Assembly: GCF_900169785.1 (NCBI RefSeq)
Contig: NZ_FWER01000018.1
Span: 1 to 64,000 of the forward strand
Direction of reading: 5' to 3'
Source: Rhizobium sullae
Lineage (GTDB): Bacteria; Pseudomonadota; Alphaproteobacteria; Rhizobiales; Rhizobiaceae
DNA: 64,000 nt
Both the position numbers and the translations under genes were made by a program. Shown in pieces: positions 17,958 to 19,525 of this stretch (positions within the stretch are counted from its first letter, which is position 1; every line of letters begins with the position of its first letter). The notes under the pieces are model-generated. The model worked only from the letters and a program-made list of their open reading frames with translations. It was not told where the DNA came from and did no database searches.

Positions 17958-18515
17958 TCAGCCCTTGAACAGCGTGCCGGGATAGACCGACGGATTAGGA
18001 TCGCTGTCTTTGCCATCGCCGAGCGGCCGCTGCATGATCATCGTGTCAAGCCAGCGCCCGTGTTTGTATCCGGCACCTTTCAGCAGACCCGTATCTTCAA
18101 AGCCCAACGTGCGATGAAGCGCGATCGAAGCAGGATGAGCGCCGCCAATGACGGCTATCATCTGGCGGAAGCCGAGTTCCGTGCAGCGCGAAATCAGCGC
18201 TGTGAGCAGTGCCCGACCGATGCCAAGGCCGCGCGCTGCAGGCGCGAGATAGATTGAATCCTCCACGATCCAGCGATAGGCAGGTCGGGTGCGGAAGGCG
18301 GAGGCGTAGGCATAGCCAAGCAGGGTCCCATTCTCATCAACCGCAGCGACATAGGGATACCCGAGGCCGGTATTCGCGGAGAAGCGAGAAGCCATCTCGG
18401 ATTCCGAAGGCGGGATGATCTCGTAGCTGGCGACGCCATTGAGGACTGATTCGCGATAGATTTCCGTGATTGCGGGAAGGTCGGAAGGAGTGGCGTCACG
18501 AAGGGAGAATGGCAT
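17958..18515 (-). CDS. GNAT acetyltransferase, phosphinothricin acetyltransferase-like
   Basis: 185-residue GNAT protein close to the Pat/Bar/YncA group, which N-acetylates glufosinate-like or methionine-sulfoximine-type compounds or other small amines. The N-terminus (LRDATPSDLPAITEIY), the EDSIYL strand, the acetyl-CoA loop ARGLGIGRALL (about 94-104) and the GGAHPASIALH-x-x-LGF segment match that group. The physiological substrate cannot be inferred. It is expressed from its own start, convergent with the DUF2794 gene. Confidence 0.85.
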   Translation of the reverse strand: MPFSLRDATPSDLPAITEIYRESVLNGVASYEIIPPSESEMASRFSANTGLGYPYVAAVDENGTLLGYAYASAFRTRPAYRWIVEDSIYLAPAARGLGIGRALLTALISRCTELGFRQMIAVIGGAHPASIALHRTLGFEDTGLLKGAGYKHGRWLDTMIMQRPLGDGKDSDPNPSVYPGTLFKG

Positions 18516-18574: not shown

Positions 18575-18602
18575 TAAAAAAGGCGGCCGGAGCCGCCTTT
18601 TC
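18575..18602 (-). terminator. Rho-independent terminator of the Bax-inhibitor-1 gene
   Basis: On the minus strand AAAAGGCGGC-TCCG-GCCGCCTTTTTT forms a 10-bp stem with a tetraloop and a T-tract, 16 bp beyond the stop of the gene ending at 18618. Being A/T-flanked on both sides, it might also act on the plus strand. Confidence 0.85.
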
Positions 18603-18617
18603 GGTGATGCTGTCCCC

Positions 18618-19346
18618 TTACCTGCGGTTACCGAGGAACTGCAGCAGGAACATGAAGAGGTTGATAAAGTCGAGATAGAGCGTCAGCGCGCCTATGATCG
18701 CCTTGCGGCCGGCGACGGCAACGTCATCGGCTTCGAAGTACATTTCCTTGATCCGCTGCGTATCGTAGGCTGTAAGGCCTGCGAAGATCAGAACGCCGAT
18801 CACGGAGATCGCGAACTGCATCGCGGAAGAGGCCAGGAAAATGTTCACCAGCGAGGCGATGATCAGACCGAAGAGGCCCATGATCAGGAACGAGCCCATC
18901 GCCGAGAGGTCACGTTTTGTCGAGTAACCGTAAAGCGACAGCGCGCCAAAGGAGGCGGCGGTGATGAAGAACGTTTGAACGACGCTCTGGCCCGTGTAGA
19001 TCAGCAGGATTGACGACAGCGAAAGGCCGACGAGTGCGGCATAGACCCAGAAAGTCGTCTGGGCGGCGGCGACACTCATGCGGCCGATCCGGAAGCTCAG
19101 GAAAAACACCAGAGCCAACGGGGCAAGGATCACGACCCACTTCAGCGGGCTCACATAGATCGCCTGGCCGAAGGCGGTCAATTGACCGTCGGCAAAAGCG
19201 AGCTGGAATGATAGAAATGCCGCTACACCCGTGATCGCCAGACCCAGCGCCATCAGGTTGTAGACCTTGAGCATATAGGAGCGCAGGCCCTGGTCGATCA
19301 TCTCGCCAGTTTGTGCGCGGCTTTGGTAGTTACGAAGGTCAGCCAT
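18618..19346 (-). CDS. Bax inhibitor-1 / YccA-YbhL family membrane protein
   Basis: 242-residue polytopic inner-membrane protein with about seven hydrophobic helices. The family signature near the C-terminus is present: LTAYDTQRIKEMY (about 193-205), and the LTLYLDFINLFMFLLQFLG ending. Bacterial members are linked to calcium leak or membrane-protein turnover, but the role here is inferred only from the family. A structured leader upstream resembles the ybhL RNA motif of Rhizobiales; a terminator follows. Confidence 0.93.
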   Translation of the reverse strand: MADLRNYQSRAQTGEMIDQGLRSYMLKVYNLMALGLAITGVAAFLSFQLAFADGQLTAFGQAIYVSPLKWVVILAPLALVFFLSFRIGRMSVAAAQTTFWVYAALVGLSLSSILLIYTGQSVVQTFFITAASFGALSLYGYSTKRDLSAMGSFLIMGLFGLIIASLVNIFLASSAMQFAISVIGVLIFAGLTAYDTQRIKEMYFEADDVAVAGRKAIIGALTLYLDFINLFMFLLQFLGNRR

Positions 19347-19356
19347 AGTTTCCTCT

Positions 19357-19418
19357 TAAAAGCTCCGATGGGAATACGGTGTCGGGCTATACGACCCGGG
19401 CGCCGCTGCGGAGCTCCA
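19357..19418 (-). promoter_or_regulatory. Probable ybhL leader RNA
   Basis: On the minus strand, just before the Bax-inhibitor-1 (YbhL family) gene, an outer 7-bp stem AGCTCCG/CGGAGCT (19409-19415 with 19361-19367) encloses a smaller hairpin CGGG/CCCG (or CGTC-type GTCG/CGAC alternative). The 3' arm is followed by TTTTAAGAGGAAACT-ATG, so the last stem ends in a short T-run right before the ribosome-binding site. The ybhL motif is a known structured leader upstream of ybhL in Rhizobiales; I assign it from position and fold, not a covariance match. Confidence 0.6.
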
Positions 19419-19525
19419 GCATGCCTAGCCACAATATGAGCCTTTCGCCCTTTGCAAACAAGGCCCTTGCAACCCGCGATCGGGTTAAATCGCCGTAAGG
19501 TGAAGGGATTTTATCTGCCGCCGAT

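Follow-up and report, generated by a model that had tools for sequence, protein, structure and literature searches.

The ybhL leader (RF00520) was described in 2005 by Corbino et al. (PMC1273637) as an RNA motif of the Rhizobiales that stands ahead of genes of the Bax-inhibitor-1 (BI-1) family and is built of an outer and an inner stem, and the same sequence, stems and position are found at the locus studied here. In the parts of that report considered here, in-line probing of an A. tumefaciens RNA spanning -139 to +21 was read as a doubly bulged hairpin, no role was proposed for the motif, and pseudoknots were mentioned for metA/SAM-II only (PMC1273637). Later papers, in the passages that name the motif, merely list it (PMC2573895, PMC2245857, PMC3766115, PMC5596092); the first two of these give the Sinorhizobium meliloti 1021 gene as SMc03839. 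A literature search covering the main texts of papers open without subscription returned no pseudoknot reported for ybhL and no role proposed since 2005. A covariance model cannot hold a pseudoknot, so that one may or may not be annotated in the Rfam seed.

The preQ1 riboswitch and other small pseudoknot riboswitches are short elements with crossing helices, and in SAM-II the last strand lies near the ribosome-binding site, as in the ybhL leader. SAM-II, as presented in the 2005 report, is likewise a short element with crossing helices, the arrangement that we propose below for ybhL (PMC1273637). However, the ybhL sequence is unrelated to those of SAM-II and the small pseudoknot riboswitches, any ligand of it is putative and only BI-1 genes lie downstream in the loci examined, so that the leader may work like them but is not a member of their classes. 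ROSE-type RNA thermometers are also rhizobial. They resemble the ybhL leader in preceding possibly stress-linked genes in the same bacterial group, whereas the ybhL Shine-Dalgarno sequence lies in no conserved helix and the ybhL sequence is conserved far beyond the need of a thermometer. ROSE-type elements are mentioned in the excerpts considered of PMC3989490 and PMC4167512. As to the downstream gene, deletion of BI-1 in Brucella suis was reported to lower resistance to acid, peroxide, polymyxin B and lincomycin, and YetJ was described as a calcium-homeostasis protein, both in the portion considered of PMC7876416.

The leader of Rhizobium sullae, its promoter and its occurrence

A cmscan of the window, by which we mean the whole stretch of 64,000 nucleotides of R. 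sullae DNA that was analysed, returned a match to RF00520 with an E-value of 7e-11 (whole window as search space) and a score well above the gathering score (Table 1). This covariance-model search had been proposed as a check in an earlier note made from the DNA letters alone, and it bears out the identity assigned there. The Bax-inhibitor-1 gene that the note expected downstream is present, with the leader directly upstream of it, and B. subtilis YetJ was the only solved BI-1 relative found by sequence. The extent given in the note (19357-19418) overlaps the leader but misses its conserved 5' end (19426-19419). A GNAT gene (17958-18515) lies downstream of BI-1, and an FtsX-type permease gene and an ABC ATPase gene lie upstream. 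Just past the BI-1 stop codon, a G+C-rich inverted repeat followed by a T-run (18575-18605, minus strand) looks by eye like a terminator; it is absent from the list of the terminator scan. The second Rfam match in the window, RF01793 (ffh) at 2440-2491 on the minus strand (65.5 bits against 35), stands upstream of ffh, which is listed as ORF 786-2462 and whose usual start is probably the ATG at 2357.

Table 1. Coordinates of the ybhL leader, its predicted parts and the flanking features in the window
Feature	Position	Strand	Basis or remark
ybhL leader RNA (RF00520)	19358..19427	-	cmscan 75.3 bits, gathering 50
BI-1 / YbhL gene, 242 aa (Bax1-I)	18618..19346	-	Pfam PF01027, 219.9 bits, E 3.9e-65
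-35-like CTTGTT	19457..19462	-	CTTG-N20-CATANT spacing in relatives
-10-like CATATT	19433..19438	-	7-9 nt before conserved GGCATGC
Putative transcription start A, first base of RNA element	19426	-	promoter spacing
Proposed P0 5' strand GGCAUGCUG	19417..19425	-	paired 19425-19423, 19420-19417; matching changes in relatives
P1 5' arm GCUCCG	19409..19414	-	inside P0 loop; 19415, 19416 can extend
Proposed P0 3' strand CAGCGGCGCC	19399..19408	-	19408-19405 with 19417-19420; 19401-19399 with 19423-19425
P3 hairpin CGGG/CCCG	19383..19398	-	size highly variable in relatives
Conserved ACACC after P3	19378..19382	-	contains most of Rfam P2 3' side
P1 3' arm CGGAGC	19362..19367	-	19361-19360 can extend
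Shine-Dalgarno AGAGGA	19351..19356	-	sequence

Among 197 distinct upstream regions, drawn from the first 236 loci, CTTG stands exactly 20 nt before CATANT in 190, the end of the -10 box is 7-9 nt from GGCATGC in all 195 where both boxes were found, and an A immediately precedes GGCATGC in every one; this base differs in a few loci that were found later and are more divergent, such as L319. The conserved spacing of the boxes together with the invariant A suggests that the transcript begins with the element itself, so that the BI-1 mRNA probably begins with the leader, or within 1-2 bases of it, and the element takes up roughly its first 80 nt. For A. tumefaciens, too, a possible start close to where the hairpin begins was noted in the part of the 2005 report considered (PMC1273637). 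The RNA probed in that species apparently started upstream of the natural 5' end, and the additional 5' nucleotides may have kept the probing from showing the whole fold. CTTG-N20-CATATT resembles both RpoD-type and RpoH-type motifs, similar ones being quoted, in the excerpts considered, for S. meliloti RpoH1/RpoH2 and R. etli SigA/RpoH; the CTTGTT/CATATT promoter was not among the sites listed by a sigma-70 scan of the window.

A GCUG..CAGC core lies right behind the -10 box in 374 of 396 loci. Fifteen of the 22 regions that are devoid of this core were inspected: 12 keep a CTTG..CATATT-like promoter and three have no recognisable -10 box. Most of these 12 transcripts would open with an unrelated plain hairpin (mean z -1.95 with two of 12 near zero, values that stand without a matched control set). 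Core-less regions with this promoter and an unrelated simple 5' hairpin are L358, L363, L365, L366, L367, L372 and L374, the hairpin of L366 being no better than shuffles.

Of 60 genomes sampled from the genus, 59 had RF00520; family-wide it was present in 263 of 394 genomes and 79 of 109 genera. A sample of the order gave 18 positive genomes of 397, all 18 in the window's own family, and a search of 14 control genomes outside the order with RF00520 gave no hits. A second model, R2, was built here from alignment A2 (described below) with P1 and P3 as its only structure; it lifted the family count to 281 of 394 genomes and 82 of 109 genera, its hits on A2 genomes not being independent because it was built from them, and in a second sample of the order it matched 12 of 297 genomes, again all in the window's own family. 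An all-species motif scan found 119 stretches, and each of the 80 that were listed carried a rhizobial name (Rhizobium, Sinorhizobium/Ensifer, Hoeflea, Ciceribacter, Pararhizobium, Agrobacterium and unnamed Rhizobiales). Given this spread over genus and family, a ybhL leader is an ordinary find in this window.

Of the genomes listed without a match, 21 were inspected for BI-1: all 21 encode it, and the GCUG..CAGC core is kept in five of them (L360, L361, L364, L368, L377) and missing in 16; the gene is thus more widespread than the leader. The RNA models and the motif together yielded 344 loci, and in every one the core lies at most 175 nt upstream of BI-1, which was the only downstream gene in the loci examined. 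One genome (G703) has a second BI-1 copy (L359) with its own divergent leader, in which CCAGU replaces CCAGC and which is probably the second of two R2 matches in that genome. At L382, L384, L408 and L409, a second, more distant BI-1 copy (start MN..) has no leader core and lies, by eye, closely behind another gene.

Outer stem P1, hairpin P3 and a proposed helix P0

Two alignments were made. A1 holds 32 sequences chosen from 62 representatives; A2 holds 100 divergent loci hand-picked from 151 representatives of 274 unique elements (those longer than 125 nt excluded), and its counts are therefore not those of a random sample. The model used to align A2 contained P1 and P3 as its sole structure.

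The outer stem, which the earlier note gave as 7 bp, exists in the window as a 6-bp helix (P1, 19414-19409 with 19367-19362) that an A-U and a G-U pair can extend to 8, and the inner hairpin is present as P3 (19398-19395 with 19386-19383). In A2, whose fitting to P1 and P3 makes their scores lean that way, five of the six P1 pairs and three of the four P3 pairs were changed on both sides, with 98.8% and 95.6% of cells paired, respectively. For the two helices together, 97.6% of cells were paired over the 100 relatives, eight of ten pairs had two-sided changes and 97 cells were two-sided, a value that none of 500 shuffles equalled. The second check of the note, whether the stems are kept by compensatory changes, was thereby run and its expectation held. 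The length of the Rfam match in relatives ranges from 61 to 139 nt, a variation that by eye falls almost wholly in P3; P0 and P1 are constant in size, and P3 looks like a site of lineage-specific inserts.

The middle helix of the Rfam drawing, P2, was paired in 89.8% of A2 cells; it had zero two-sided changes in this alignment, and its outer pair (27-114) was broken in 26 of 97 sequences. As a single sequence, 19359-19418 folds with a z of -2.05 (4 of 200 shuffles fold as well), and the longer span 19347-19426 folds unremarkably (z 0.13); with single-sequence statistics this weak, the case rests on comparison and not on one fold.

The invariant 5' end of the leader, GGCAUGCUG, is unpaired in the Rfam covariance model and is complementary to the CAGC-GG-CGCC block, which suggests that the 5' end of the leader pairs with its middle. 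This helix, P0, would offer a reason for the conservation of the 5' end. Compared with RF00520 as drawn, what appears to be new is that the conserved 5' tail is paired and that the middle helix is without covariation. The hairpin within an outer stem that the note described is thus present in both its parts but is probably incomplete, as the 5' end appears to pair with the middle.

In A2, fitted to P1 and P3 only, 97.6% of P0 cells were paired and 8 were two-sided, with none of 500 shuffles as high. All 8 fall at pair 1-35, which is GC in 85, UA in 4, CG in 3, UG in 1 and otherwise composed in 7 of the 100 sequences; the upper GCUG/CAGC segment of P0 hardly varies and so has almost no covariation of its own. 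Slid controls were lower than P0 in cells paired, the one slid by +3 columns reaching 72.0%. This +3 control nevertheless beat P0 in two-sided cells (15 versus 8) and in covariation score (0.061 versus 0.040), so that the slid-control table alone is not decisive.

The weightiest evidence for P0 comes from divergent lineages. By eye, GGCAA in one genus faces UUGCC or CUGCC, and replaced pairs are also seen as GCAC with GUGC in L305, UGC with GCA in five loci (L213, L193, L198, L332, L334), CGC with GCG in L269 and C1 with G35 in L300 and L344. Regions fetched through the protein add AGAUC/GAUCU (L368), GUG/CAC (L360), AAGCG/CGUUU (L377) and GGU/ACC (L373). L368, L360 and L377 come from genomes for which the RNA-model searches listed no match and yet keep P0 with replaced pairs, and L373 was found by model R2 only.

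A partner-swap test was carried out on the 396 regions, 22 of which were dropped as having no core. Over 43 distinct combinations, the mean hairpin energy was -11.02 with own partners and -10.31 with swapped ones, and none of 300 shuffles was as good; for the 28 combinations with non-consensus 5' ends none of 500 shuffles was as good, and with one combination per 5' type (n=16) one of 500 was. At position 10, a base other than G occurs in 15 of 139 unique leaders without the partner base and in 1 of 135 with it (Fisher p 4e-4), the sole departure among partner-bearing leaders being a U-G pair. Exceptions at this position are one leader with G-A and two loci found later, L394 (U-C) and L395 (C-C), in which the pair is broken.

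A BI-1 tree built with FastTree from 118 rows shows 18 changes in column 1. When independent pairs were taken across supported (starred) branches only, G1 and C35 (coarse labels) went the same way in 4.9 of 8 pairs and the opposite way in 0.0, with a median p of 0.06; U1 with A35 yielded 2 independent pairs only, too few to test. Pair 1-35 is unpaired in 7 of 100 A2 rows, namely L210 and six with C1, some of which could re-pair in another register. Outside A2, L391 has A-A at the lower pair and L364 is without the lower part of P0. Two folding results also speak against P0: in the window it has a probability of 0.018 in the pseudoknot-free ensemble, and the first 29 nt of the leader fold no better than shuffles. 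In a fold of 19320-19426 the 5' end paired instead with the beginning of the coding sequence, which was judged to be chance because codons 1-4 vary (ATGTCT, ATGGTT) and no matching changes were found by eye.

A probable pseudoknot and its possible control of translation initiation

P0, P1 and P3 are thus predicted helices that are supported by comparison, and the first two would form simultaneously. The P0 loop (GCUG to CAGC) measures 7-10 nt in 371 of 374 loci and, apart from 0-3 bases, is the P1 5' arm; since the two helices share no base, both can form, as an H-type pseudoknot. Such a fold takes two crossing helices, and each of them is backed by comparison, P1 through its changed pairs and P0 through its lower part. 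Our preferred reading, which we hold to be probable, is that P0 and P1 make up an H-type pseudoknot with P3 in its long loop and that this structure regulates translation initiation in cis.

An ungapped P1 could be fitted in 361 of the 374 loci and not in the other 13. Two subtypes were distinguished, for which the labels R and M were coined in this analysis: P1 has 7-8 bp and a linker of 0-1 nt in 198 of 201 fitted R loci, and 6 bp with a linker of 1-2 nt in 137 of 160 fitted M loci. In 194 of the 361 loci P1 can be extended over every linker base; with no linker base left, a pseudoknot would require P1 to give up one or two pairs at its end. P0 is kept and P1 is not in L377. Rough energies, computed with a fixed penalty of +9.6 kcal/mol, place the pseudoknot of the window at -24.7, its best nested fold at -24.1 and P0 without P1 at -20.7 kcal/mol. 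By the same rough comparison, which left out 37 of 374 loci (longer than 125 nt, or with no 6-bp P1 having at most one G-U), the pseudoknot beats the best nested alternative in 126 of 192 R loci; in M loci it is worse, by a median of +1.6 kcal/mol, and better in 28 of 145.

A Shine-Dalgarno-like site follows the P1 3' arm by 4-15 nt in 358 of 361 fitted loci; the R subtype has the shorter distance, 4-6 nt (190 of 201 loci), and the M subtype the longer, 7-15 nt (157 of 160). The footprint of the 30S subunit usually covers the region just ahead of the Shine-Dalgarno sequence, the end of the P1 3' arm included. With this end inside the footprint, a stabilised pseudoknot should hinder initiation, and opening of the pseudoknot would allow it; loss of P1 would free its 3' strand, and P0 alone would still leave a hairpin at the 5' terminus of the mRNA. 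Because the alternative folds are nearly equal by the rough energies, little would be needed to shift the balance, and the signal could be an ion, pH, a metabolite or a protein. Control of translation by the leader is plausible, and the revised structure supplies precise base pairs from which testable mutants can be designed. We suggest only tentatively, and with a good deal of doubt, that the ybhL leader is an unrecognised pseudoknot riboswitch class that governs a channel-like BI-1 by sensing an ion or a related signal in membrane or calcium homeostasis. Ions and pH come first among the candidate signals because of the phenotype of the B. suis BI-1 deletion, which makes their choice a guess. 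Identification of a signal would give a pointer to what bacterial Bax-inhibitor-1 proteins do; should the leader be such a riboswitch, its ligand would reveal this as well.

A structured 5' end may also be useful in itself, as promoter and plain hairpin persist where the core is missing. It is possible, although not the account that we favour, that the 5' structure mainly protects the mRNA end or sets a basal rate of translation and answers to no signal. The 12 of 15 core-less regions that keep the promoter, most of them opening with a plain hairpin, fit this idea, which is compatible with the pseudoknot; over 82 of 109 genera, however, loop and junction bases are conserved more strictly than a plain hairpin needs.

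Less likely is a two-state switch with no pseudoknot, in which P0 and the set P1-P2-P3 exclude each other, P0 forming first during transcription with the translation start open and refolding into P1-P2-P3 closing it. P0 and Rfam P2 do have bases in common, the mean cost of forcing P0 into a nested fold, relative to the best fold of 62 representatives, is 2.1 kcal/mol in R and 1.3 kcal/mol in M, and the first 29 nt at the 5' end, taken alone, fold into P0 at -11.5 kcal/mol. But these 29 nt fold no better than shuffles (z -0.17), and the only true competitor, P2, is the helix without covariation. Moreover, P0 and P1 have no base in common, and the P1 5' arm runs directly into the P0 3' strand with no base to spare, features that an either-or switch does not need.

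It is more doubtful still that the Rfam drawing is right as it stands, the RNA being a doubly bulged hairpin and the conservation of its unpaired 5' end and loops being due to their recognition by a protein or a ligand. The in-line probing was read as such a hairpin in the part of the 2005 report considered (PMC1273637), P1 and P3 are strongly supported and P2 is still mostly paired; against it, changes at the 5' end tend to have matching changes in the middle, and the middle helix lacks covariation. Finally, an attenuator in which translation of a leader peptide from an AUG at +5 (MLELRSGARVV in the window) controls the fold was rejected as highly improbable because, although an AUG stands at that place in 245 of 304 unique leaders, neither frame nor stop is conserved: 33 of 304 leaders have no AUG, UUG or GUG there, one extra base puts the conserved block in another frame in the M subtype, 126 of 271 frames reach or pass the gene start, and no conserved terminator was found.

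The earlier note had also described a T-run after the 3' arm and suggested early termination as one of two modes of control. In the window this run amounts to UUUU, and it is not a conserved feature: only 18 of 304 unique leaders have four or more consecutive U within the 24 nt that precede the start codon. The terminator scan of the window listed no terminator-like site in the leader. Early termination is thus not supported, and transcription attenuation was rejected for want of a conserved U-run. A ROSE-type thermometer was rejected as well, the Shine-Dalgarno sequence lying outside P0, P1 and P3 and not in a conserved helix. In many single-sequence folds this sequence is partly paired, mostly with the coding sequence by eye, and its median accessibility is 0.40 and 0.35.
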